Virus record (IMG/VR): IMGVR_UViG_3300015171_000008
Span: 1-47,130 of that record
Length of the DNA: 47,130 nucleotides
Reading direction: 5' to 3' (one strand)
From: a virus
Positions 1-39,261 of this stretch are shown here, piece by piece (position 1 is the stretch's first letter; each line of letters begins with the position of its first letter). Under the pieces are notes generated by a model. It was not told where the DNA came from and ran no database searches. It worked only from the letters and a program-made list of their open reading frames with translations. A program made the translations under genes and the position numbers.

Positions 1-742
1 CTCCCGCTACCGTTGGGAACAATGCCCCAGGTCCAATCAGGACTGCCTGAGCTCCATTTACGCCTGCGTAAACGTTTGCGACGGCCGCGTTGCCCGATCC
101 CGCGTCACTAAGTGTGGGGGCCGTTACTGTGGTTAGAGCGCTCGTCGTGACAGTAATTGAGCATAAATAATATCCATTTCCAAGAGACACCATCGACTGA
201 CTGGCGGCAGAGAAATTGGGGCCAAAGATGGTAGCCGCAACACCAACCGCACCGCCCGCCAAATCAAAAACACAATAAGCCCCGCCGGTCGGATTTGTGG
301 TTGCGGTTGCAGCATCGGTTATCTCCAGTGTTGCACGAGTCCGCGTACCTTGCTTCATTATCCGGGCATGCGTGTAGGATATAGAGGATGCGGCTTTTAG
401 AACCGTTTGTGAAACATAATGCTGGCCGTTTGTGGTGTTCTCAACCAAAGCCCCGATGTTAGCGTTGCCATCCGGTCCTGTCGCAACATTCGCAGTTACG
501 GTGGAGTTTACGTTGCCCCACACCTGCGTCTTGGTGGCGTCCTGCGACCACACCAGCAGGTTCGGTTTGCCGCTATTTCCGGAACTGATCTGCGGACTGG
601 CGATGACGACTTCACCAGTGACCTTGTTGCCTCCAGCAAGCAGCACATTGCGCTGCATGGGCGTCAACCCCAAAGCTACCTCATTCGCAAACGCGGAAGT
701 AGCGGCACCAATCAGCAATCCTCGTTTTGTGAATTTGAGCAT
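1..742 (-). CDS. Secreted fibre-like protein, 3' end cut by window edge
   Basis: The frame is open from an ATG at 742 to the left edge, about 247 codons without a stop, so the C-terminus lies outside the window. The N-terminus has a basic stretch, a short hydrophobic core and a small-residue site around residues 17-20, which resembles a Sec signal peptide. The rest is rich in Thr, Ala, Gly and Asn. A segment around residues 195-210 (SLGNGYYLCSITVTT) resembles the beta-sandwich carbohydrate-binding modules at the ends of phage fibres. It starts 5 bases after the stop of the gene at 748-1926, so it is likely the last visible gene of that operon. A role in surface or receptor binding is inferred. 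Confidence 0.7.
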   Translation of the reverse strand, partial: MLKFTKRGLLIGAATSAFANEVALGLTPMQRNVLLAGGNKVTGEVVIASPQISSGNSGKPNLLVWSQDATKTQVWGNVNSTVTANVATGPDGNANIGALVENTTNGQHYVSQTVLKAASSISYTHARIMKQGTRTRATLEITDAATATTNPTGGAYCVFDLAGGAVGVAATIFGPNFSAASQSMVSLGNGYYLCSITVTTSALTTVTAPTLSDAGSGNAAVANVYAGVNGAQAVLIGPGALFPTVAG

Positions 743-747
743 AGCTG

Positions 748-1926
748 TTAGTTCTGCGGCCCAGAGAGCGTCCAGCGCACGAGTTTGTTTTGATCCGCCG
801 TGTCGGTCGCGACCGTGACGGCGCACAGATAGAGATTTTGTCCCGGCGACGTATCCACATTCTTGTAGTCCCAGGTGATGCCCTGTAGCGCCGCATAGCT
901 GTTGGCATCGCCCGTCGTTACCGCAGGGGCAGCAGGCGTGATGGCGAACGGCGGGGCAATTAAGAAAGCGTCATCGGTATCGCTTCCCGAGAATGCCGAG
1001 TTATCAGTGCAAGTAGTCCCAGTCGGGTTTTTCTGCCAGATACGAACCACAAGCTGTCCAACAGAGGCGCCGGTTGATTTGTAGCCGATGTTGGTGAGGA
1101 TGCCGCTCCCGCCGTTGACACGAGCTAGGGCAATAGAGAACAAGCCCCCAACAGACGTACCGGCCGCATGAGACGAATTTGCTGGGGTGGCTGTAGCGAC
1201 GATGGCGCCACTGTCGTAACCGCCAGCAATGACGCGCGTGTTGCCAAGCAAATCCATGCTGGCAAAATCGAGGTTGCCGTTCGTTCGCGCAGCGGCCGTA
1301 GTCTCAACATACGCCATTCCAATAGCGCCAGTCTGACTACCGTAAAGGGCGTTTTTGGCCACTCCGATAGGATTGACAGAGAGCGCCCCACCAGCCGTCA
1401 CAGTTGCAGTATTGCCCCCCTGTACAATCGTAACATTGCCGCCACCCGAACCGCCTCCACCACCAGAACCAGAAGGCGTGCCAGTTCCACCAGAGACGTT
1501 AATTGTCGTTGTGCTAGATGCCGTAATACAAGCTACAGTATCAAACGCTCCGACCGTATAAGTAAAAAATCCACCAGGAGCAACTTGATCGTTTGACGTA
1601 GTTGCAGTGGTTGCACCAGTTCCAGGCTTACAAAAAGCCGCTACCGAACCTGTATTATACAAAACAGCAGTGCCGCCACTTGGCAGAGAAACACTGCTAG
1701 AAACACTAGAGACAGATATTGGCGTAGCGTATGCTGGCGTTGGTGCAAATGCAGCAGAAGTAAAAGAACCAGTCACAGGAAAAGGTGCAGTCTGACTAAC
1801 CGGAATACAATTTCTACCACTTGTATCTGTTATGCAAACTTTAACTGATATTTGAGCAAAAGCATTCTTATCAAGCGCAAAAAATGCGCAAAATGCCCAC
1901 ACTAATAATGCGAGTAAATAGCGCAT
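748..1926 (-). CDS. Secreted Gly/Thr-rich fibre-like protein
   Basis: The 392-residue product starts with a clear signal peptide: MRY, a hydrophobic core, then a NAFAQ cleavage site near residue 24. I preferred the ATG at 1926 to an upstream in-frame start because it places the signal peptide at the very N-terminus and has GGAA upstream. Two N-terminal Cys residues (VCIT, RNCIP) could form a disulfide. A Gly-Ser linker near residues 155-165 separates an N-terminal beta-rich part from a C-terminal part. The composition and position beside other fibre-like genes suggest an appendage or adhesin. I recognise no named family. Confidence 0.7.
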   Translation of the reverse strand: MRYLLALLVWAFCAFFALDKNAFAQISVKVCITDTSGRNCIPVSQTAPFPVTGSFTSAAFAPTPAYATPISVSSVSSSVSLPSGGTAVLYNTGSVAAFCKPGTGATTATTSNDQVAPGGFFTYTVGAFDTVACITASSTTTINVSGGTGTPSGSGGGGGSGGGNVTIVQGGNTATVTAGGALSVNPIGVAKNALYGSQTGAIGMAYVETTAAARTNGNLDFASMDLLGNTRVIAGGYDSGAIVATATPANSSHAAGTSVGGLFSIALARVNGGSGILTNIGYKSTGASVGQLVVRIWQKNPTGTTCTDNSAFSGSDTDDAFLIAPPFAITPAAPAVTTGDANSYAALQGITWDYKNVDTSPGQNLYLCAVTVATDTADQNKLVRWTLSGPQN

Positions 1927-1952
1927 GTTTATATTCCGATTCAAAATAAATA

Positions 1953-2402
1953 TTACTGGCAAGCCCAAACACCGGCCTTAGCCGAAAAGCAATCGTACGC
2001 GGTATGAGTTGCCAAAGTGGCCGAAGTTCCATTGTTAATAGTATCTTGCGTAGCGCTTACCGGATTATTTGTGACATTTGGATAAATAGTTAAAGTCGAT
2101 GCGCCATTATTGTAAAAACGAATAGAGACTCCCGGCAAAGCAAACGGGATTGAAATTCCAGTGCTTGCCGCAGTCGTGTCAATTTCAACAAATTGAAGAT
2201 TAGACGGAATGACGGTCGCTGTAGCCTGAGTGGTACCAGCCGCCGTGACACCGTTCGTAAAAGTATTGTTCTGACCTTGAGCCAGCCCTAGAACATAAGC
2301 CCCGTCGATTAGACGAAAGCCGGGCGTAGGAACCTGCCCGACTCCCCAGGCGATGCCAACGGCAGCAATCGACGCCAGAATACCGGCTAGAAGCTTTTTC
2401 AT
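1953..2402 (-). CDS. Small secreted beta-rich protein
   Basis: The product has 149 residues and begins MKKLLAGILASIAAVGIAWG, a strong Sec signal peptide, with an AAAGGA ribosome site before the ATG at 2402. The C-terminal half contains a segment around residues 90-150 (IRFYNNGASTLTIYPN, then DTINNG) like the short trimeric beta modules found in phage fibres and head fibres, and a Cys pair near the end (DCFSAKAGVWACQ). It lies between the O-antigen polymerase-like gene and another secreted fibre-like gene. The function is unknown; a virion or surface role is inferred. Confidence 0.65.
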   Translation of the reverse strand: MKKLLAGILASIAAVGIAWGVGQVPTPGFRLIDGAYVLGLAQGQNNTFTNGVTAAGTTQATATVIPSNLQFVEIDTTAASTGISIPFALPGVSIRFYNNGASTLTIYPNVTNNPVSATQDTINNGTSATLATHTAYDCFSAKAGVWACQ

Positions 2403-2403
2403 A

Positions 2404-2766
2404 TTAAGGAATCCTTTGTTGAGCCAATAAGGTTTTTACAAAAACATGATTTGGAGCTAAGTCATAAAGCTCTTTAAATTGTTTTGCCGCACCTTCGAAA
2501 TCATTTGCCGCTATCATTTGTCGAATCAAAATTATCATTAGGCTAGTTGAGTTTGGTTCGTAGTATTTGACAGCCAATAATACGTCTAAGTTATTCTGGA
2601 TATCTGCAACTTGCATAATTCCAGTTCTAAATCTAAAATCCCATGGAAACATCTTAAGCGCGAATTGTAATTTGCCTAAATCTTGTTCCAGCATTCCTTG
2701 CGTATGAATATATTCTGCCGCTCCAAAACACAAACTGAGCGTCATCCCAATTACGCAAGCAATCAT
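2404..2766 (-). CDS. C-terminal part of split O-antigen polymerase/ligase-like protein
   Basis: This frame begins at an ATG at 2766, inside the 3' end of the gene at 2654-3613, and encodes about 120 residues. It starts with a membrane helix (MIACVIGMTLSLCFGAAEYI), followed by a soluble part rich in short helices ending near AQQRIP. A last membrane helix followed by a helical, TPR-like tail is how Wzy/PglL-type proteins end. The longer open frame back to 2931 has an unlikely N-terminus (Arg- and Trp-rich) and is probably not translated. It is either a separately initiated subunit or, more likely, the shifted end of one ancestral protein. Confidence 0.55.
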   Translation of the reverse strand: MIACVIGMTLSLCFGAAEYIHTQGMLEQDLGKLQFALKMFPWDFRFRTGIMQVADIQNNLDVLLAVKYYEPNSTSLMIILIRQMIAANDFEGAAKQFKELYDLAPNHVFVKTLLAQQRIP

Positions 2767-3613
2767 AGAAACAAAGCGACGTAATAAATAAAGTTGTAGG
2801 CACATATAACGGAAAACCAAATAAACCCTCAATGAGAAACGCCAACACCACGTATTTAAGCGTCGATTTCGTAAATACTGTGCCCAATATAATCGCTGTG
2901 TAAAAGATAACTCCAAAAATCCCATAATCAAAAATTAATTCGAGCAAGTCATTATGAATGTGAATGATCGAATATGAATTATCTACTATATCGAAATAAT
3001 TTAAATATTCATTGCGGAATGAGTTAATTCCATGTCCTAGTAAATTAAGATGTGTTGTCGCAAAGGTCCAAAGTTCTAGGCGATCTTGAATGCTCGTACT
3101 TCTCAGCAAGAGGCTTGAGAATATTATCAATATAATAATTCCACAAAGCAGTAGCTTCCATTTGACGTTTAACTTTATCGCAATCATACCCACAATAAGC
3201 AAAGCGATCACCGAAGCGCGTTGCATCGGTAACAGCATTGCCGGAACCATTAGCGGCAGTAGATAATATAGGCGATAAACTAAGCATCCAACTATCACCA
3301 GTGCCGTTGCTTCGGCCAGTATGTTACCATTTATAAACAGTCCAGGAGGCGAATTAAATATTTGCACAACTGGACGGTATCCAAACCATTGAAATAAACA
3401 GAAAATGCTATTTATTCCAACACCTAAAGAACAAGCAATAAACAGGTGCTTAAATTGCAAATCAGCTTTAAAGTGTATCAGCAAGGGAACAAAAGCAAAC
3501 AATGAACACCATCTTAGAGTTGTAGCCGCACCTTCAACGTTTGGCCAGTATGCTGTGAATAGGACAAATGCTAACAAAAGCCATGGGCGGCACCAGTTAA
3601 AGATGCCGCCCAT
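2654..3613 (-). CDS. O-antigen polymerase/ligase (Wzy/WaaL/PglL)-like membrane protein, frameshifted at C-terminus
   Basis: The 319-residue product has about eight or nine hydrophobic segments. It carries the signature of the Wzy_C superfamily: an RLELWTFA...LLGHGINSF segment before a loop with HIHNDLLEL, the conserved His-Asn-Asp-x-x-Glu region of O-antigen polymerases and ligases. The frame is good to FPLYVPTTLFITSLCF near 2775. Beyond that its tail is Trp- and Arg-rich and atypical, while the +1 frame continues with the expected last membrane helix. Phage-encoded polymerases of this class (such as Wzy-beta of phage D3) alter host O-antigen and block superinfection. That role is inferred here. 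The gene sits among fibre genes. Confidence 0.7.
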   Translation of the reverse strand: MGGIFNWCRPWLLLAFVLFTAYWPNVEGAATTLRWCSLFAFVPLLIHFKADLQFKHLFIACSLGVGINSIFCLFQWFGYRPVVQIFNSPPGLFINGNILAEATALVIVGCLVYRLYYLLPLMVPAMLLPMQRASVIALLIVGMIAIKLNVKWKLLLCGIIILIIFSSLLLRSTSIQDRLELWTFATTHLNLLGHGINSFRNEYLNYFDIVDNSYSIIHIHNDLLELIFDYGIFGVIFYTAIILGTVFTKSTLKYVVLAFLIEGLFGFPLYVPTTLFITSLCFYDCLRNWDDAQFVFWSGRIYSYARNAGTRFRQITIRA

Positions 3614-3621
3614 TTAATCTA

Positions 3622-4959
3622 TTACGGTTCCGCCGACCATCCAATTACGCCAGTGCCAGCGCCAGAACCGACAAACTCCGATGCCTGACCGGCAGTAGCA
3701 GTAGTTTGAGAAGATAGCGCACCAGTCGCAGGAGTGTTGCTAACACCAGTGGTTACGAGAGTGCCGGGAGTGGTCTGAGTACCGGCAATGAGCAACTTAA
3801 ATCCTCCAATGGTGATAGGCGAAGTGATTGGAGTAATGCGCATTAGTTGCGGGAAACGATAGAGAATATTAACTTGATTGGTAGCACCGACAATAGCACT
3901 TGCGTAAATCGGAGTGCCCGCCGAACCATTCTCTTGAATAGTCCAATATCGCGCAAGCTGAAGATTCCAATCGTCAGCTAGGTTACGGCGAACGAACGGG
4001 CTAGGCGCCGTTGAAGTTCCGCCGCGATATTCAAGCTGCGCGTTACCAATTTCAAGATAATCGTTGGTTCCAGCAGTACCAACGCCAGTAAGGCAGATTT
4101 TAACGCCAACGCCTAGCGTCTGAGTAGTAGTTCCGGTGGCGTAATAAGGAATCTGCGCCGCAACGCTATAGCGCGCCCAGCTAGTTGATGCTGTGGTTAG
4201 AGTGTTAACGGCCTCAGTGTAATTGGTAATATTCTGAGTGCCGGTCAATGAGCTAGCAAAAATTCCGGTATTAGTGCCCTGACCATTAGCGGCGCCAGTC
4301 GTCACGTCAGTCGCAGTATGATAACCAATAACGAGATTCACACCGAGCGGTGAAAAGTTAGCGCCCTGTTGAAGCTCAACCGAAAAAATAGCCGTTCGAG
4401 TACCAGTTGACGCATTAATAAAGGGCTCTGATTCCGCATCTGGCAAAAGCTGACCAACGCAATATTGTCCAGTTGCAGTTTGATTAGCCACGCGCTGAAT
4501 GCGCATGGACGCCAAAGAACCAGGAGGCTGACTAGCTGCACCAGTTTGCTTCGAAACAGTCACAAGCGGTGCAGTAGTTCCACCATAAACATACCAACCA
4601 TCGGCGGTATAGATTGCCGTATTCAGAGAAAGCGAGGCAAAGCTAGTACCACGCTGCCAAAGATTCTGTCCAAAATCACCGCCAACAATACCGTTAATCT
4701 TGTTATAAAGTAGTGGAACCGGAATCTTACCAGATTGAATACCGCCAGCTTGCGCCGGATTGGTATCGGCAGGCACCGTTTCATTTCCAGTTAAAGCGGG
4801 ACCAGCCGGAATAGTAGACTGACAAACGTTGTTAACAGTGCTGGCGCAATAGCTAGGACCGCCAAGAATCGGCATGTCCGGTGCAAAAGTCTGAGCTAAA
4901 GCAGCAATTCCAGTAGCAGCAACCGTAGCAAATAAACCGATTGCAATTTTGCGTAACAT
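3622..4959 (-). CDS. Secreted tail-fibre/adhesin-like protein
   Basis: The 445-residue protein starts MLRKIAIGLFATVAATGIAALAQ, a classical signal peptide with an AALAQ cleavage site, behind an AAGGAT ribosome site. From about residue 90 it matches the layout of phage fibre C-termini with a carbohydrate-binding jelly roll: NLWQRGTSF and TADGWYVY near the start, a Ser/Thr-rich core, then LEIGNAQLEYRGG, PFVRR and LARYWTI. That last pattern occurs in many phage and prophage fibre tips. A receptor- or glycan-binding role follows from that layout. The signal peptide on such a protein is unusual. It starts the operon that continues into the O-antigen polymerase-like gene. Confidence 0.75.
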   Translation of the reverse strand: MLRKIAIGLFATVAATGIAALAQTFAPDMPILGGPSYCASTVNNVCQSTIPAGPALTGNETVPADTNPAQAGGIQSGKIPVPLLYNKINGIVGGDFGQNLWQRGTSFASLSLNTAIYTADGWYVYGGTTAPLVTVSKQTGAASQPPGSLASMRIQRVANQTATGQYCVGQLLPDAESEPFINASTGTRTAIFSVELQQGANFSPLGVNLVIGYHTATDVTTGAANGQGTNTGIFASSLTGTQNITNYTEAVNTLTTASTSWARYSVAAQIPYYATGTTTQTLGVGVKICLTGVGTAGTNDYLEIGNAQLEYRGGTSTAPSPFVRRNLADDWNLQLARYWTIQENGSAGTPIYASAIVGATNQVNILYRFPQLMRITPITSPITIGGFKLLIAGTQTTPGTLVTTGVSNTPATGALSSQTTATAGQASEFVGSGAGTGVIGWSAEP

Positions 4960-5009: not shown

Positions 5010-5078
5010 TTAGAACTTAGCGTAATAGATAGCAAAACATAGACTGATAAAAACGATAGTTAAGGCGATAAATGTCAT
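5010..5078 (-). CDS. 22-residue membrane peptide
   Basis: The ATG at 5078 overlaps the TGA of the small terminase gene as ATGA, a typical coupling arrangement. The 22-residue product is almost one hydrophobic helix (MTFIALTIVFISLCFAIYY, then AKF). It ends just before the palindrome at 4990-5007. Nothing more can be said about function. It could be a chance short frame, but the overlap and composition favour a real gene. Confidence 0.4.
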   Translation of the reverse strand: MTFIALTIVFISLCFAIYYAKF

Positions 5079-5704
5079 GACACCAATTTAATCTCAATAG
5101 GAACAACGTCTAACGGTTCCAAGTCGCTATCAATCTGTTCCACAACCTTAAGCTTGTTAACGTTCTGTTCGGGCGATGGAATTAAAACAAGCTCCATCAC
5201 ATTATTCTGAAATAGATTGTTGTTAGTCGAATTATCAATGTTGATTTTACCAGTGTAACCCAACACTTCAGCGTAAGCTTTTAAAGCTGCGATCCGATCT
5301 TTAGCTTCGTGAACGTGGAAAGCCTGCCCGTTTCGCGTAACTTTTTCATCTGCAAGTGCAAGCAGCCTAGCGGCTAACTCCGTCTTGTCAAGCGGCTTTT
5401 CTACTGCTTTGATGGATTTCAAATAGATATCGCGACTGGCCATCGCTATCGGGTCGGCCATCCAATGAGCCGATACCCACAATGCAGGCCCCGTCTGATC
5501 ATTAAAAATCTCTAGCCCTGCCTTGAATGCGTTGTCGCGATTAACCTCCCCAAGCTTCGCTAATGCGATGCCAAAAGCCTTTTTCTTTTCTTCGTCAGTC
5601 GCGAATGCCGGTAGGATTTCAGCCTGGGGAGGTGCTGGATTGGCGAACGTACCCCACGCAGGGCGTTCAACTTCGAAGAATGTATTCAGTCTAGTCCAAC
5701 TCAT
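5075..5704 (-). CDS. Terminase small subunit-like protein
   Basis: The 209-residue protein has the layout of phage small terminase subunits. There is a helical N-terminal half, then a segment around residues 130-160 (KDRIAALKAYAEVLGYTGK) followed by a polar linker rich in Asn (NIDNSTNNNL), as seen where the DNA-binding/oligomer core meets the C-terminal tail. The product would recognise the packaging site and hand DNA to the large subunit. No large subunit is visible next to it; the fibre island follows instead. The ribosome site is weak. It is preceded by the strong terminator at 5721-5760, so it needs its own promoter or readthrough. Confidence 0.65.
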   Translation of the reverse strand: MSWTRLNTFFEVERPAWGTFANPAPPQAEILPAFATDEEKKKAFGIALAKLGEVNRDNAFKAGLEIFNDQTGPALWVSAHWMADPIAMASRDIYLKSIKAVEKPLDKTELAARLLALADEKVTRNGQAFHVHEAKDRIAALKAYAEVLGYTGKINIDNSTNNNLFQNNVMELVLIPSPEQNVNKLKVVEQIDSDLEPLDVVPIEIKLVS

Positions 5705-6915: not shown

Positions 6916-6992
6916 TGGTGCGCTCGATCAGATTCGAACTGATAAACAAGAAATTTTAAGTTTCTTTGCGTTACCGATTAGCATACGAGCGC
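6916..6992 (-). tRNA. tRNA with UAA anticodon (reads UUA, Leu)
   Basis: A full cloverleaf is visible on the minus strand. The acceptor stem is GCGCTCG/CGAGCGC (6986-6992 and 6920-6926), then A73 and an encoded CCA (6916-6918). The D arm has three good pairs and a GG-containing loop. The anticodon arm is AGAAA/TTTCT with loop CTTAAAA, giving anticodon UAA. The variable loop has 5 bases, and the T arm ATCAG/CTGAT has loop TTCGAAT. A UAA anticodon reads the leucine codon UUA, but bacterial leucine tRNAs normally have a long variable arm, which this one lacks. Charging identity is therefore uncertain. Confidence 0.85.
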
Positions 6993-8512: not shown

Positions 8513-8749
8513 TCATTTTCCTTCCTCTTTCTTTTCCTCAACCGGCTTCTGTGCCGCCTGTTGCTGTTCTGCCACCTGTTGACGCAGCTTGTTAATAAGC
8601 GGCGCGGCCTTGTTAAATGGCTGCGTTCCCAATCCTTCGCCGATTAGGTCAAGCTCTGTCGCATTAAGTTTCAAGCTGTATTCCTGAACAGTCTGAGCAT
8701 AGGCTGAAGTTGATAGCACTAAAAATCCAATAACAATAGTCTTTTTCAT
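8513..8749 (-). CDS. Small secreted protein with charged C-terminus
   Basis: The 78-residue product starts MKKTIVIGFLVLSTSAYAQ, a clear signal peptide with an AYAQ site. The mature part is helical and Gln-rich (LRQQVAEQQQAAQ) and ends in a charged Lys/Glu tail. An AAGGTGAAGG region precedes the start, overlapping the end of the gene at 8753. It would be a periplasmic helical peptide. Function unknown. Its TGA stop is in frame with the AP2 remnant that follows. Confidence 0.65.
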   Translation of the reverse strand: MKKTIVIGFLVLSTSAYAQTVQEYSLKLNATELDLIGEGLGTQPFNKAAPLINKLRQQVAEQQQAAQKPVEEKKEEGK

Positions 8750-9620: not shown

Positions 9621-10379
9621 TTAATTCAACGGTGCTAAATCAAGCCATTGAACACCAGGAACATTCATCTCAATCAAAATCTGCACCGTATCTTCGGCAA
9701 ACTCAGATAGAAACTTGTCCCGAGCAGCATGCGCGTCAGCGGCATGAGCAGCAGCATGAGCGTCAGCAGCATGAGCAGCACGAGCAGCATGAGTAGCAGC
9801 ATGAGCAGCAGCATGAGCGTCAGCAGCATGGGCAGCAGCATGAGCAGCATCAGCAGCATGAGCAGCATGAGTAGCAGCAGCAGTATGAGCAGCAGCATGA
9901 GCGTCAGCGGCATCAGCAGTATTTTTCGCTTGTAACGCCGCTTGTCTAGTTCCCTCTATTTCGCACAAATTAGCAGCTTCAAGCAAAGCTGCTTTATGAT
10001 CAATATTTTTACAAATTGACGCTGCCGCTCGTAGTGCAAAGGGAACGGCTTTTTTAATAGCAAGGCTGGCGACACTTTTTGCAAATTTAACATTGTCAAA
10101 AAATCCAGCACTGCCGAGTTGAATTAGAGCCAGCCGACGCATTCCGTTAGCTCTGACTTGATTTGATGACCATTTGGCGTCATTTAATCTAATTTTAAAT
10201 GATCGCAAAACTGGCGCCACGCAAACAGGGTTATCTCCATGCGGCAAGCCAAATGCATAGCAAACAGCAGCCTCGACACACATTTCACCCGGCTTATTAT
10301 TTCCAAGCCCGGCAACAAGACCACAATTCACCAATTCGAGAACTTTCTCAGCATGTTGCCTAGTGACTTCAATTGACAT
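9621..10379 (-). CDS. Conserved phage/bacterial protein with Ala-His-Asp repeat tail
   Basis: The 252-residue product starts at the ATG at 10379 with GGAGAG upstream; the frame is open further but lacks a better start. The N-terminal 150 residues (HAEKVLELVNCGLVAGLG, CVEAAVCYAFGLPHG, LNDAKWSSNQVRANGMRRLA) form a conserved helical domain seen in many proteobacterial and phage proteins of unknown function. Residues 165-240 are built from AHAADAHAAA-type units. A short unique tail follows. Ala-rich repeats of this kind also occur in putative immunity proteins, but I make no assignment. Confidence 0.65.
   Translation of the reverse strand: MSIEVTRQHAEKVLELVNCGLVAGLGNNKPGEMCVEAAVCYAFGLPHGDNPVCVAPVLRSFKIRLNDAKWSSNQVRANGMRRLALIQLGSAGFFDNVKFAKSVASLAIKKAVPFALRAAASICKNIDHKAALLEAANLCEIEGTRQAALQAKNTADAADAHAAAHTAAATHAAHAADAAHAAAHAADAHAAAHAATHAARAAHAADAHAAAHAADAHAARDKFLSEFAEDTVQILIEMNVPGVQWLDLAPLN
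9727..9935. repeat. Degenerate repeats encoding Ala-His-Asp tract
   Basis: About 200 bp are made of near-identical GCAGCATGAGC and GCGTCAGCAGCATGAGC units on the plus strand, coding for Ala-, His- and Asp-rich repeats on the minus strand. Copy number is likely to vary between isolates and assemblies. Confidence 0.85.
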
Positions 10380-10446
10380 TTTTTCTCTCCATTCGACGTT
10401 GAAGTTGACGACTTTAATTGGACCGGTGGCCCTGTCAACTATTATT

Positions 10447-11283
10447 TCACAACTCACAAGCCTTCCGTATCATATCCCAGGTTTCAACCGTCATTCTAAT
10501 TGTGATGACGCTATCATCTTCATCATCTATCTCAGTCGTCACAGCGTCAAATGCTGCTTTAACTGCCGCAACCAGTCCCAACGAACGTTTATTGGCTGGT
10601 GGCTTGGCTTCTGGTTCTGGTGAAGCCTCAACATGCCTTGGCAATGCCCGCTGACTTCCCTCCGCTTCGGCAACTGCCACTGCATCCTGAAGCACCCGGG
10701 TTGCCTTGGCGCCGTTGTGTTCCTTTAGCGTTGCCATTGCCATTGAAGGCGACACCTTGCCTTCTACCACCATTTGCTTAATCGGTTCCGGCATCGTTAG
10801 CAAGTCGAGAATTTGACTTATCCGCGCTGCGCTAATACCAGCCTTCTTAGCGATATCGCCTTGCTGCCATCCCATATCAACAAGCCGCTTATAGACTCTG
10901 GCTTGCTCCATTTGAGAGAACGGTTTACCGCTATTCCGAATGATCTGGCTGAATAGCTTATCGGCATCATTTGAATATCTATCTTCCAGGATCACTGGAA
11001 CAGTCTTAATTTCAGCGCCACGACTGATTGCCAGCATGATCGCTCGCAATCGGCATTCACCATCCGACAGCCAAGCTTCACCGTTCTCCCATGAAACGGT
11101 TAGTGGCTGTCTAACGCCAATCTCGGCAATTGACAGTGCCAATTCCTCAACGTGTTGAAGATTGGTCGGTTCGTTGAAGTCGCGACCATTCCAGTTAGCT
11201 TTAACCTTGATCTTTGCAGGATTGATTTTATGAAGATCGGAGCGACCTTCAGCGATTGATGCAATGCCGGTGCTTTTGCTCAT
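10447..11283 (-). CDS. ParB-like DNA-binding protein
   Basis: The 278-residue protein starts at 11283, where ATGA overlaps the stop of the upstream gene. Residues 40-75 carry the ParB/Spo0J N-terminal fold (HVEELALSIAEIGVRQPLTV, then SDGECRLRAI in place of the usual G-E-R-R/H). Residues 120-165 form the helix-turn-helix (QGDIAKKAGISAARISQILD). The C-terminal 50 residues are helical and acidic. No ParA is nearby, so it may regulate transcription or bind phage DNA rather than partition a plasmid-like prophage. Confidence 0.8.
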   Translation of the reverse strand: MSKSTGIASIAEGRSDLHKINPAKIKVKANWNGRDFNEPTNLQHVEELALSIAEIGVRQPLTVSWENGEAWLSDGECRLRAIMLAISRGAEIKTVPVILEDRYSNDADKLFSQIIRNSGKPFSQMEQARVYKRLVDMGWQQGDIAKKAGISAARISQILDLLTMPEPIKQMVVEGKVSPSMAMATLKEHNGAKATRVLQDAVAVAEAEGSQRALPRHVEASPEPEAKPPANKRSLGLVAAVKAAFDAVTTEIDDEDDSVITIRMTVETWDMIRKACEL

Positions 11284-25725: not shown

Positions 25726-27663
25726 GTGCTCCGACAATTGCTAAACGAAACCGGCCGACTAACTCTCGACAGTAAAATCAAGCTAAAACCTCCCATCATT
25801 CGCGAACCAATTCCCTTTCAATTAGCGACCGAGGCCGAAATTATTTCTGGCGCTGGTGGCACACTCATTGTTGACACAGAATTATATAATAATTTTTTTC
25901 TAATTCTTATGAAAGATATTAGCACCGGCAAATTGATAAAAATCACGCTAGATAACTTTAATCCCCAAATGCTTAGTTGGATATTACATGCCTATACAAC
26001 AGTCGGTTTCAATTACTATAAATATGACTTGCCGGTTATATGGACTGCCCACAAATATCAAAACTTAAGGAAAATACGCCAAGTTTCCGATGCGATCATA
26101 TTACATAATACTTGGCCGACCAATTTACAAAAGGAATTTGATTTCAAAATCCATCCAACACCACATATAGACCTGATCGAACTATGCCCCGGTCAACACA
26201 GTTTAAAGCTCTATATGGGGCGATTACATTCAAAGCGCATTCAAGAATTGCCGTTTAATCCCTATACCGAATTGACCGAAGAACAGAAAACGGTAGTTAC
26301 AGATTATTGCCACAATGATATTGTGGGCACACAAGAATTATTTTTGCACAATCGCGAGCGCATAGAATTGCGCGAGGCATTAGGCAAAGATTTTAAAATA
26401 GATTTGCGCAGTAAGAGTGACGTGCAAATGGCCGAATCAATGATAGCTAGAGAGATTTACAGCATAACAAATCGTTGGCCAAAAAAAGCTGATATAGAGC
26501 GCGAATATAGTTTCAAATATGATCCGCCGCCTTATATAAAATATGCCACGCCACAACTTCAAAAGCTATTGATGGACGTTTGCAATACGGAGTTTCACGT
26601 TGAATCAGGACAACTTTATAGACCAGAGATATTCAAGAATTATTTTGCCGAAATAGATAAATTCAAATTCAAATTTGGCATTGGCGGCTTACACTCGTGC
26701 GAGGAAAATGTTAGCTATAAAGCTGACGACGAGTGGATGATAGTTGATCGCGACGTTACTGGATATTATCCAAACATTATTGCAAATCTAGGGTTATATC
26801 CAGAACAATTAGGCGCTGTGTTTTTAGATGTTTACAAGAAAATGAAAGTTGATAGAGAATATGCAAAGAAAAATAAAATATTTACTAAGGATAAAGGTTT
26901 AAAAATTGCATTGAATGGAGTTAGCGGCAAACTCAATTCGGAGTATAGTATTTTCTATTCGCCAAAATGCTATTTGCAAATGACGCTCACAGGCCAATTG
27001 TCAGTGCTAATGTTGGCCGAAATGTTGCAATGCCAAGGAATGCAAATAATCAGTGCCAATACTGACGGCCTTGTCATCTATTGTCGCAAAAATGATTATG
27101 AAAAATTACTCTATTGGATTGATTATTGGGAAAAAGAAACCTGCTTTCCTACCGAAGAAACGTTATATAGCTACTATTATGGCCGTGACGTTAATGCCTA
27201 TTTCGCCGTCAAGACTGACGGAACAGTCAAAGTCAAAGGACCATACAGCGAAGTCGGATCACAAACAGGGACGCGATTGGACAACAATCCGATAACTTTA
27301 ATTTGCTCAGATGCTATTAAATTGTTACTTGGAAAAAATATTCCGATTGAAAAGACCATAAAAGAATGCAAAGATGTAACTAGATTTGTGATTGTTCGTA
27401 ACGTGACGGGCGGTGCCCACAAAAACGGTCAGTATCTCGGCAAAGTCGTAAGGTGGATTTATGGAAAGAATGAGTTTGGAACGATCAACTATGTCAAGAA
27501 CAATAACAAGGTGCCAGATTCGGACGGAGCAATTCCGCTTATGGATTTGCCGGATCAATTTCCGAGTGACAAGATTGATTACGAGTGGTATATTAAAAGA
27601 ACGGTGGAAATGTTAACAGAGATAGATTATTACAAGCGGTCTAAGCAGATGACGTTTTTCTAG
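25726..27663 (+). CDS. Family B DNA polymerase with 3'-5' exonuclease
   Basis: The 645-residue protein starts at a GTG. The exonuclease motifs are present: TLIVDTEL (Exo I), VGFNYYKYDLP (Exo II) and YCHNDIVGTQE (Exo III). The polymerase motifs are VDRDVTGYYPNI (motif A, Asp), KIALNGVSGKLNS (motif B) and ISANTDGLVI (motif C, with N-T-D in place of D-T-D). This is a compact phage polymerase lacking an evident terminal-protein region. The stop TAG overlaps the stop of the opposite M15 peptidase gene in CTAG (27660-27663). Confidence 0.85.
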   Translation: MLRQLLNETGRLTLDSKIKLKPPIIREPIPFQLATEAEIISGAGGTLIVDTELYNNFFLILMKDISTGKLIKITLDNFNPQMLSWILHAYTTVGFNYYKYDLPVIWTAHKYQNLRKIRQVSDAIILHNTWPTNLQKEFDFKIHPTPHIDLIELCPGQHSLKLYMGRLHSKRIQELPFNPYTELTEEQKTVVTDYCHNDIVGTQELFLHNRERIELREALGKDFKIDLRSKSDVQMAESMIAREIYSITNRWPKKADIEREYSFKYDPPPYIKYATPQLQKLLMDVCNTEFHVESGQLYRPEIFKNYFAEIDKFKFKFGIGGLHSCEENVSYKADDEWMIVDRDVTGYYPNIIANLGLYPEQLGAVFLDVYKKMKVDREYAKKNKIFTKDKGLKIALNGVSGKLNSEYSIFYSPKCYLQMTLTGQLSVLMLAEMLQCQGMQIISANTDGLVIYCRKNDYEKLLYWIDYWEKETCFPTEETLYSYYYGRDVNAYFAVKTDGTVKVKGPYSEVGSQTGTRLDNNPITLICSDAIKLLLGKNIPIEKTIKECKDVTRFVIVRNVTGGAHKNGQYLGKVVRWIYGKNEFGTINYVKNNNKVPDSDGAIPLMDLPDQFPSDKIDYEWYIKRTVEMLTEIDYYKRSKQMTFF

Positions 27664-28220
27664 CCCCATTTCGCATAAACGTTTCGCCTGAAATGCTTAT
27701 GCGCATACCGTCGTAAATTCATCCCATCGTCAACATGTCCGCAGTCACGAAATGAACACCCATCCCTAAGCCCGTGTTTCGCCGCTAAAGCTGCCACATG
27801 GTACATCGGCCCTGCCGTCTTACCCCATCCTCGCTGATCAATATCACATGCCGCGCCAGCGTAATGCCGACTGTTCGGGACATGGCCGCCACTCGCATAG
27901 CAGCCGATATGAGAGGGCCTATAGCCATTAGCTACAAGGTCCGCGATAAAGCCTGTAAAGCGACTGGCGACGCTAGCAGCGACCCGGATAGGGATTCCTG
28001 CGGCAGTGGCTACCGTCACAATTCCACCCGACGCCTCGGCATGAGCCATTTCGTGAATTGATGGTGCGGCATGATGACGCACATGGCGATGGCGCTTAAT
28101 GTGACGATGCTTTACATGATGACCCGGCTTCATTTGAGCAAAGCCTGGAATTTGAGGCTCGGCATGAGCAACAGAGCTAAAACAGATTACCAATATTCCA
28201 ATTAAAAGTTTTTTCATCAC
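27660..28220 (-). CDS. Secreted M15-type D-Ala-D-Ala carboxypeptidase-like lysin
   Basis: The 186-residue protein starts with a signal peptide (MKKLLIGILVICFSSVAHAE), then a His/Lys/Arg-rich segment (residues 33-52) and a catalytic part with SRHYAGAACDID and DCGHVD. These match the His-x6-Asp and His-x-Asp zinc motifs of M15 peptidases. Four more Cys (GCYASGG, GCSFRDCGH) may form disulfides. It would cut peptidoglycan peptides in the periplasm and be exported by the Sec route, unlike the GH19 endolysin upstream. The His-rich segment may bind metal or outer-membrane components. Confidence 0.75.
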   Translation of the reverse strand: MMKKLLIGILVICFSSVAHAEPQIPGFAQMKPGHHVKHRHIKRHRHVRHHAAPSIHEMAHAEASGGIVTVATAAGIPIRVAASVASRFTGFIADLVANGYRPSHIGCYASGGHVPNSRHYAGAACDIDQRGWGKTAGPMYHVAALAAKHGLRDGCSFRDCGHVDDGMNLRRYAHKHFRRNVYAKWG

Positions 28221-28502: not shown

Positions 28503-28985
28503 TCATAGTCCAAATGGCGCCAATAGGGCAGGAAGCGTTAATGCTCCGCCAGCAATCTTAGATAATAATGTAATTACGTCTTGTTTCAATTCTTCGGCAA
28601 ATGGAGCGCACGCCACTTTCAAAGGTGATCCTGGACGTAAAGCGTTGACCAAATCGCGATTACGTTGAAACGCCGTAATGATATGCGGTTCAGGCAATGC
28701 CGCCCCTTGCGCCGTCTGCTGTGCGTTAATCAGTGCAATCCAAGCGTCATAGCAATTAGATGCAATAGAATCGCCAGTTGCCTTTGCATCAGCTGTGGCG
28801 GCCTGTAAATCGGCCAATGCAACTTGCTGAATCTTTGAAATTAAATCTGGCGCGGCTGCTTCGGCTTGCCTGCCACCAACAGCCGCTTTAATATCTTCAA
28901 TGGGGCGACCCGTTAACTGTGGTCGCGTTTGAGCAAATGAAGGTGCTGAAATTAGAAATAGAATGAGAACGATAAATAATTTCAT
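28503..28985 (-). CDS. Secreted protein of the lysis block
   Basis: The 160-residue protein begins MKLFIVLILFLISAPSFAQT, a signal peptide. The mature part is helical (LISKIQQVALADLQAATADA) with two Cys and ends in a Leu/Pro/Ala hydrophobic stretch (GGALTLPALLAPFG). Similar unnamed proteins occur in proteobacterial phage lysis blocks. It may be a spanin-like or export-helper protein. It overlaps the holin-like gene as ATGA. Confidence 0.6.
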   Translation of the reverse strand: MKLFIVLILFLISAPSFAQTRPQLTGRPIEDIKAAVGGRQAEAAAPDLISKIQQVALADLQAATADAKATGDSIASNCYDAWIALINAQQTAQGAALPEPHIITAFQRNRDLVNALRPGSPLKVACAPFAEELKQDVITLLSKIAGGALTLPALLAPFGL

Positions 28986-33600: not shown

Positions 33601-34284
33601 CACATTAGAAGTGATATTGGACGGATTACTAGCGACAACAGTTGAAGCAGTTTTTGAAACTACAGTTGTTCCAGCGGGCATACACGATAATTCGATATTT
33701 GCCCCAATTGGAATTTGAGTAGTATCTGGAATTGACGAAATTGTAGTACTAGAACTAGTGCAAGCAACAGTATTGGTTAAAGTAATTGCGGTAAATAGAT
33801 TAGCGTAAGTCGTTCGCGAAACCTCTTGACCATAAGCAAAAGCGTATTGCAGCGGCGCAACAATACCGGCCCATGGCTTGATTGAGCCAACTGCCGCACC
33901 ATCGCCAACTAACGATGCCTGACCGGGAGCGAGAGTTGAGCTTGTCACCTTGTCCCAAATTGTATTTCCGTTCATGTCCTTTAGGACTTGACGATAGCTG
34001 CCACTGCCGAATATCTGTAAGCCGCCATTTGGCCTACCGGCAGCGTCCAAGATCACAGGGTTTGTATTGGGCGTTGTCTCGGCAGAATCCGACCATGTAG
34101 TTTTACGAGTTGAAGTGCTCGGAATATAAAAATCGACTGTGCCAGAAGTTACAGGATTGCCGTTAGAATCAAAGTATTGCTGAAGCGCATTAGGAAGCAG
34201 TGAAGCAGTCTGAGCATAAAGTTGCCCACACATAGCAAGGCTAATAATGAAGCTATTGAGTATAACGGCAATAATCTTATTCAT
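30670..34284 (-). CDS. Tailspike with signal peptide, collar domain and pectate-lyase-like depolymerase
   Basis: The 1204-residue protein begins with a signal peptide-like stretch (MNKIIAVILNSFIISLAMCG, then QLYAQ). A head-binding module follows (about 30-110: YFDSNGNPVTSGTVDFYIPS, then NPVILDAAGR). A Tail Collar domain spans about 135-360 (WAGIVAPLQYAFAYGQ; FNVPDLRGRVIAGRTNM). Then come Gly/Thr-rich repeats with TDTLTNKT units and a duplicated 55-residue segment (about 618-678 and 808-865). A pectate-lyase-like beta-helix starts near 912 (DDSAAIQCQINYMN; GGIVYFPPGNYIIGTT). It probably degrades host surface polysaccharide. Confidence 0.8.
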   Translation of the reverse strand: MNKIIAVILNSFIISLAMCGQLYAQTASLLPNALQQYFDSNGNPVTSGTVDFYIPSTSTRKTTWSDSAETTPNTNPVILDAAGRPNGGLQIFGSGSYRQVLKDMNGNTIWDKVTSSTLAPGQASLVGDGAAVGSIKPWAGIVAPLQYAFAYGQEVSRTTYANLFTAITLTNTVACTSSSTTISSIPDTTQIPIGANIELSCMPAGTTVVSKTASTVVASNPSNITSNVTAIFFPFGNGNGTTTFNVPDLRGRVIAGRTNMGGTNSTILSSCTSPDSIGGKCGTQSQTIAQANLPVITLATAIAAGQGSHTHTYSAPAGNSGASGGAVQVNSGVTNTGASTLPSMTGTTPLGGSGTALNILQPMESMNYVIKVLTDASISTSTVVTSIQGMVGDLTCGANMTCGAGVISSTGGGAGTTPGGNTTDIQFNSSGAFAGSPNLTWSNPTLTIGATGSSGALTIVGSVSGNVTQTAQGTAGNTIITWGNSTGTPAVTASAPLAITTTTGNIACVTCATSANNLSFFAATTSAQLLSIISDETGSGSLVFNTSPTLATPSLGIATATSINGLTLTSSTGTFTLTNAKTFSVANSIALAGVDSSTITFQGTDTYVGRATTDTLTNKTFDTGGTGNVFKIGGASVTAIAGNTATVGTTSGVLTSGHCVSIDANANLVDAGGACTTGGGGGTVSGGTAGQIAYYGTSSTIVSGNPNLTIATGALTVGLAGGVQGTVKISGATSGTTTLAVAAAASGILTLPSATDTIVGRATADTLTNKTLTAPIIATISNTGTLTLPTSTDTLIGKATTDTLTNKTYNTAGTGNAFSINGQSITAVSGNTSKVATTSGTLTNNNCVSIDASGNLIASGGACGAVASISNSDGTLTISPTTGASVASINLAHANTWTAIQKFNANTYFGSGAPWVDVKSGANSCAAAVGNASTDDSAAIQCQINYMNSTYTGGIVYFPPGNYIIGTTLTVKGTVILLGSGIGVSSITVTGGTLDITALAFDSTTVNAGIRDLFIVGDIHSTATNPTVTIASGRLVNLTNSYIWGGSYALQTAGVDGFISDVYFAGFGTAGGGINSTGANWYERVKIDQAAATTYGFHQGACAISLCENHFGVSDFSGTYTYSLYVDDTTNTTAITTIHGGVFSSPIVITKAKATIINGSEIGSTTLTNNATGPLIVGASYGFAATTANGTGPRSCAANYNITC

Positions 34285-38817: not shown

Positions 38818-39261
38818 TTAGTTTTCCAATACGGGAATGACCAACTGCCCACAATGCTCTAAACATTCAACTTCACTCTGAGCAATAAAATAGGATTCAA
38901 TTTTATCTAAATCTGTTTCATGAGTTCCGTGGATAGTCAACCAAACGCAATCCTCATGAGCAATTGCAATCCGCTTGGTTCCAGCCTCAGACACAACATG
39001 AAATGGTGCTCTAATTCGTTTGACTTCGTGCCCAATCAACACAGACATTTCGCCTTTAGTTAGAATATTAAACTGACTGTATTTATGAACCTTGCCAGTT
39101 AGCATTACACCTTTTGGTATATATAATTCTCTGACATAAGTTCCATATGCAAAATAATGTTTAACGTCTAATTCAACTTGCTTTTCTTGACGCATCAAAG
39201 CTTCAAGAGCTAGAACCTTTTCTCTCGTATTTAACTCATTAAATATTTGTGGGACGTTCAT
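38818..39261 (-). CDS. Cupin-like virion-operon protein
   Basis: The 147-residue protein carries a beta-rich core (ELYIPKGVMLTGKVHKYSQF, then MSVLIGHEVKRIRAPFHVVS) and then a conserved TKRIAIAHEDCVWLTIHGTH with E-T-D-L-D-K-I-E. This pattern occurs in many phage genomes beside the tail genes and looks like a double-stranded beta-helix (cupin) fold with possible His metal ligands. Its role is not established. It overlaps the LuxR-type gene by 23 bases. Confidence 0.65.
   Translation of the reverse strand: MNVPQIFNELNTREKVLALEALMRQEKQVELDVKHYFAYGTYVRELYIPKGVMLTGKVHKYSQFNILTKGEMSVLIGHEVKRIRAPFHVVSEAGTKRIAIAHEDCVWLTIHGTHETDLDKIESYFIAQSEVECLEHCGQLVIPVLEN

Follow-up and report, generated by a model that had tools for sequence, protein, structure and literature searches.

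Tailed phage virions are regarded as purely cytoplasmic assemblies, and their spikes are normally produced in the cell and joined to the particle there. The closest described proteins to the one considered here are the tailspikes of the phages P22 and Sf6 (gp9 and gp14), whose solved domains are numbered from the protein start and which presumably lack a signal peptide (SP). Spikes of the same head-binding family are encoded by the Xanthomonas phage PBR31, the Pseudomonas phage PAE2 and Phage DSL-LC05. Some phage proteins, namely SAR endolysins and spanins, do use the host Sec machinery, but these are lysis proteins and not virion spikes. Coat proteins of filamentous phages are virion proteins inserted through Sec; their assembly, however, takes place in the inner membrane as the phage is extruded, whereas the phage analyzed here has a tailed lytic-type virion. 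The virion of the Agrobacterium phage Milano is described as cysteine-rich, with many disulfides, including those of the spikes and short fibres (PMC10811340). Unlike our reading of the phage below, the available portion of that article proposes no export, and the word "periplasm" is absent from it (PMC10811340). No papers on Sec export of tailed-phage spikes, alone or together with disulfide formation, were found in the open-licence literature.

The window, i.e., the whole stretch of DNA that was analyzed (47,130 bases), is the IMG/VR record IMGVR_UViG_3300015171_000008, classed as linear. It contains P22-type virion genes, namely head closure (phrog_578), DNA ejection (phrog_598), major head protein and scaffold genes. 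The nearest major capsid protein in the cultured-phage collection was that of the Pseudomonas phage PAE2 (50.5% identity). The tailspike gene is placed after the DNA-ejection genes, as that of a normal spike would be. This P22-like gene position, the head-binding fold and the pectate-lyase-like C-terminal domain are shared with the P22 and Sf6 spikes; in contrast to those, the window spike has a cleavable leader before the domain and paired cysteines. The coordinates of the features are given in Table 1. In addition, a tRNA-Leu (taa) gene was found (6916–6992, minus strand), as well as an ORF (9621–10457, minus strand) whose product contains a long alanine/histidine-rich repeat (AHAADAHAA...), which corresponds to an 84-nt repeat present in 15 register copies.

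Table 1. Features of the window. Scores are those of the home-made signal peptide scorer.
Feature	Coordinates	Strand	SP score	Basis or remarks
Fibre-like protein, cut by contig end	1..742	-	3.4	phrog_5939 tail protein, 1.6e-11
Glycine-rich fibre-like protein, 392 aa	748..1926	-	5.3	SP residues 1-24; 6 mature cysteines
Fibre-like protein, 149 aa	1953..2402	-	5.5	SP residues 1-20; 2 mature cysteines
TPR-type ORF	2404..2931	-		Weak TPR matches; overlaps the Wzy_C ORF in another frame
Membrane protein like O-antigen ligases / O-oligosaccharyltransferases (Wzy_C)	2654..3613	-		PF04932
Fibre-like protein, 445 aa	3622..4959	-	7.1	SP residues 1-22; 4 mature cysteines
Terminase small subunit	5075..5704	-		phrog_5334, E 6.7e-12; flanks island; same neighbour in relatives
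Tailspike, 1204 aa	30670..34284	-	5.1	SP, head-binding domain, Collar, long middle, pectate-lyase-like C-terminal domain
Tailspike head-binding (virion attachment) domain, about residues 25-120	33925..34212	-		AF2 model and fold matches
Tailspike signal peptide, residues 1-24, predicted cut before Q25	34213..34284	-		Alignment with 17 relatives

An earlier note on this DNA had ascribed Sec-like signal peptides to the tailspike and to the four fibre-like products of Table 1. All five ORFs lie where it placed them, on the minus strand. Signal peptides were evaluated with a home-made scorer of n-, h- and c-regions. In a check on 42 E. coli K-12 genes, values of at least 5 were obtained for 6/6 exported products and for 1/36 others (a multi-pass transporter); some export labels in this check are not in the annotation and are assumed to be correct. 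Four of the five products scored at least 5 (5.1–7.1) and have n-, h- and c-regions with an AxA-like site, as substrates of Sec and signal peptidase I do; the product of the contig end was borderline and incomplete, with a weak signal peptide at about residues 1–25. The presence of signal peptides on the spike and fibre-like products was confirmed, with this one reservation. The observation is also broader than originally described; the cysteine signature, the spread through relatives and the ligase-like island gene are absent from the earlier note. Anchoring as lipoproteins (signal peptidase II) was rejected, as a lipobox was not found and cysteine occupied the predicted +1 position in 0/5 products. 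An artefact or a wrong start codon was ruled out by the conservation of leaders in relatives and by cysteine parity.

Signal peptides are also present in the lysis region, so not every product bearing one is fibre-like. Two genes of that region (27660–28217 and 28503–28985, both on the minus strand) encode strong signal peptides; the first product has weak endolysin matches and four mature cysteines, and the second has two cysteines. A further strong signal peptide was found in a 78-aa protein without cysteines (8516–8749, minus strand), which has homologues in G003, G006, G008 and G009.

A search with the first 128 residues of the spike gave 32 viral loci. An SP-like segment was found in 18/18 close IMG/VR relatives (the first found, L010–L027); its sequence varied and its end position was the same. 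The distant matches contained a signal peptide in 0/14 cases and started at the domain, most of them being near-identical copies of one protein. In the alignment of the window spike with 17 relatives, the leaders vary while Q25 is invariant and A24 nearly so, and the predicted cut after residue 24 (GQLYA|QTAS in the window spike) falls at a site common to the relatives. Note that the scorer set the cut of the window spike at residue 17, in disagreement with this common site.

In 51 measurable SP-bearing spikes, a conserved proline follows the predicted mature N-terminus at a distance of 3–8 residues (mode 6). In 21/23 measurable SP-less spikes, the nearest methionine is 4–8 residues before the same proline, the other two values being 1 and 12; sequences lacking the proline motif (6 with and 19 without a signal peptide) were left out. 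The predicted cleavage thus leaves an N-terminus like that of the SP-less relatives. In all 34 INPHARED records with the spike domain, the match begins no earlier than query residue 11, and a signal peptide was found in none of the three INPHARED spikes whose N-termini were read. The PBR31, PAE2 and DSL-LC05 spikes, unlike the window spike, start at the domain without a signal peptide.

Contigs bearing the titles Bradyrhizobium, Hyphomicrobiales, Rhodospirillaceae, Acidiferrales and Sulfopaludibacter contain SP-bearing relatives of the spike domain. Short SP-bearing proteins with the head-binding domain were also found in Bradyrhizobium and Rhodospirillaceae contigs (L125–L129). For two of these (L126 and L127), an integrase-like gene is located upstream and no clear phage structural genes were seen in the part read. 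Two IMG/VR records with names suggestive of isolate genomes (L180 and L185) encode, after DNA-ejection-like genes, an SP-bearing spike and then a second SP protein.

The AF2 model of the mature spike (residues 25–409) has pLDDT values mostly above 90 in the head-binding domain and is confident over most of its first 90 residues. Residues 10–96 of the model match the P22 tailspike head-binding domain (1lkt; Z 10.7, 84 aligned residues, 2.3 A), and matches were also obtained with Sf6 (7ukj, Z 10.9) and with the cyanophages Pan3 (9vyg, Z 11.3) and Pam1. Residues 10–91 of the Pan3 chain correspond to residues 10–91 of the model, i.e., the mature numbering agrees with that of a solved SP-less spike. 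The model therefore places the head-binding fold expected of a P22-type tailspike at the predicted mature N-terminus. The earlier note was correct in its premise that a head-binding module normally stands first in such a spike. The PBR31 spike belongs to the same head-binding family (INPHARED domain match), and the available part of its description terms its N-terminal portion a virion-binding domain (PMC10975493). Downstream, the window spike contains a Collar domain (PF07484, 3.8e-12) and, at about residues 928–999, a pectate-lyase-like match above its cut-off (PF12708, E 5e-9), which points to the right-handed beta-helix receptor domain of P22-type tailspikes.

The mature window spike contains 18 cysteines, which form nine neighbouring pairs, and the counts for the other clearly SP-bearing fibre-like products are also even (Table 1). 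Even counts, between 8 and 18, were found throughout the window spike and its 17 relatives (16 of these sequences are complete and 2 run into contig ends). A wider set, which overlaps these relatives, comprised 104 loci, of which 24 came from bacterial genomes and the other 80 from viral contigs; 10 that were truncated, short, misframed or ambiguous were removed, leaving 94 spikes (54 with and 40 without a signal peptide). Mature cysteine counts were even, odd or zero in 51:3:0 SP-bearing spikes versus 14:19:7 SP-less ones (n = 94, Fisher's test 9e-8), and in 39:3:0 versus 10:19:7 at 70% non-redundancy (2e-7). Among spikes with at least two cysteines, the contrast was weaker (even:odd 51:3 versus 14:9, p 0.0006). 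The odd SP-bearing spikes are L111, L118 and L195, and some SP-less spikes are cysteine-rich; L128 and L129, with four cysteines each, were counted as SP-less despite SP-like letters upstream.

The spacing of cysteines follows the same division: median gaps are 18 within and 100 between pairs in even SP-bearing spikes, versus 36 and 39 in SP-less ones. When the nine window pairs were followed by column through the 17 relatives, both cysteines were present in 41 cells, neither in 94 and one only in 18. Some of the last are probably alignment offsets (in G006 and G019, a 10-residue pair lies nearby); because of these one-only cells, parity and spacing were relied on instead.

Parity was also counted in 22 records (the window and G001–G021) with crude gene calls made for this analysis, the scorer making no use of it. 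Even, odd and zero counts were found in 70, 7 and 11 complete SP-bearing ORFs without a lipobox or a further membrane span, versus 254, 386 and 351 of the ORFs that lacked both a signal peptide and a membrane span (Fisher's test 6e-19). One of the seven odd ORFs is the window spike itself, owing to the scorer cut at residue 17 instead of 24. With one ORF taken per blastp family, even:odd was about 34:4 versus 119:189. The contrast persisted at thresholds of 4.5, 5, 6 and 7 (lipoproteins included). The N-termini could instead be chance or membrane-tethering hydrophobic stretches and not working signal peptides, given that the scorer yields false positives with membrane proteins and that the product of the contig end is weak. 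This explanation is highly improbable in view of the AxA|Q-type sites conserved in relatives and of a parity that is independent of the scorer and holds at every threshold tried, from 4.5 to 7.

In a poorly resolved tree of 99 head-binding domains, the signal peptide label changes at least 7 times, and 3 of these changes are forced by supported branches. Only three phylogenetically independent pairs were obtained, with parity the same way in one or two of them, which is too few for a test; in one pairing among those listed, parity went the opposite way in one independent pair.

Among exported proteins, having an even number of cysteines is regarded as characteristic of DsbA substrates, according to the available part of the source (PMC7678975). 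The spike and the 392-, 149- and 445-residue proteins, which combine a signal sequence with even mature cysteine counts, are candidate substrates of this type. Paired cysteines of this kind mark proteins that fold with disulfides in an oxidizing compartment, so Sec export of the SP-bearing spike and fibre proteins is very probably real. The same even-cysteine parity is shown by bacterial exported proteins, so it supports export and disulfides but not docking on the virion. There may also be dual targeting, with a cytoplasmic spike fraction building virions and an exported one having another role. The h-region of the spike is only moderately hydrophobic (score 5.1), and Met18 could start a shorter form; however, no internal start close to the mature end recurs in the relatives, and the cysteine pairing suggests selection on the oxidized form, so we consider this quite unlikely.

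The fibre-like proteins form an island next to the terminase small subunit gene, and in most records with the flank present the island runs toward the terminase large subunit and portal genes. Members of the 445-residue family were found in 15/22 related records, usually adjoining a terminase-small-like gene. Within 9 kb downstream of such a member, 1 to 7 genes with signal peptides were counted, including the member where it scored. An SP-rich island adjoining terminase genes thus recurs in relatives. The model of the 445-residue protein has a mean pLDDT of 50.1, its better middle part resembling CBM4-type carbohydrate-binding modules, and no match to this protein was found in INPHARED. The C-terminal 159 residues of the 392-residue protein share 77% identity with an SP protein from G008. 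The N-terminus of the truncated product, which has two cysteines in the part present, resembles a G008 SP protein by eye (LTPxQR...LL), but blastp gave no match. The 149-residue family, with members in 12/22 records, is a natural test of the association of signal peptides with cysteines: the five SP-bearing members all have two mature cysteines (5/5), versus 3, 2, 1, 1, 0, 2 and 1 in the seven SP-less members. A fibre module with cysteines was also looked for by regular expression, but the pattern was too strict to find anything useful.

In several relatives, an O-antigen-ligase-like membrane protein is also encoded within the SP-rich island. The PF04932 match of the window protein (E 5e-7, 29.9 bits) is below the cut-off of 31.7, and those of four tested island homologues (38.7–41.6 bits) are above it. 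Examples from G000, G001 and G012 have the Wzy_C membrane protein and the other-frame TPR ORF between island genes. A similar split is seen in G001 and G012, where separate TPR homologues adjoin Wzy_C, which makes a sequencing error in the window alone unlikely; the two frames (2404–3613) possibly represent a two-subunit enzyme or a programmed frameshift. Searches of viral contigs with the Wzy_C protein and with an ejection protein gave no loci. The putative ligase-like protein may, speculatively, attach glycans to the exported fibres or alter the surface of the host.

A signal peptide alone would bring a protein only to the periplasm, and the exported proteins might not be virion parts at all but exclusion factors, decoys or free polysaccharide-cutting enzymes acting in the envelope or after release. 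The carbohydrate-binding-like folds and the ligase-like gene of the island suit a change in the envelope, and a virion-attachment domain was not detected in the island proteins. However, the spike keeps a P22-type head-binding domain with a predicted mature start equal to that of SP-less virion spikes, its gene comes after those for DNA ejection, as is usual for a spike, and a second large spike was not seen; on balance this possibility appears unlikely. Apart from the spike, no large candidate for receptor binding was seen in the window. A small SP-less protein (38818–39261) with a "short tail fiber" PHROG match might bind the host in place of the spike.

We therefore favour, with a probability of about 0.6, maturation of the spike and fibres in the periplasm with docking of the spike on the virion at lysis. 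The tailspike and the lectin-like fibre proteins would pass through the host Sec channel, and signal peptidase would remove the leader and leave an ordinary spike N-terminus. The proteins would then fold in the oxidizing periplasm, with disulfides between neighbouring cysteines and probably with the assistance of host DsbA-type enzymes. Short-tailed heads would assemble in the cytoplasm, and the head-binding domain of the spike would meet them and dock at lysis. Export and disulfide folding are supported by two independent sequence signals, the conserved signal peptides and the paired cysteines; we infer docking from the conserved attachment domain and from the lack of another large spike in the window. 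P22 tailspikes can bind heads in extracts, which makes docking at lysis plausible. The island proteins would likewise belong to the virion.

The conflict seen by the earlier note between an exported appearance and cytoplasmic fibre assembly is real. Of the three roles of export that it offered, a periplasmic step accords best with the cysteine pairing and with a virion-attachment domain that is intact, and late release fits docking at lysis. Display on the host surface, for instance for exclusion, may still apply to the small island proteins, but it needs passage through the outer membrane, and no component carrying a Sec substrate across it was found. A wider scheme, to which we give slightly less than even odds, would be assembly in two compartments, with cytoplasmic heads and short tails and with exported, oxidized spikes and lectin-like fibres, perhaps O-glycosylated by the phage-encoded ligase-like enzyme, joined only at lysis.

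If spikes mature outside the cytoplasm, disulfide chemistry would be open to phage adhesins, and infection would depend on the host Sec and Dsb functions. Annotation should then keep tail genes with signal peptides, and a leader together with paired cysteines on a virion-attachment domain would provide a sequence test for such phages.
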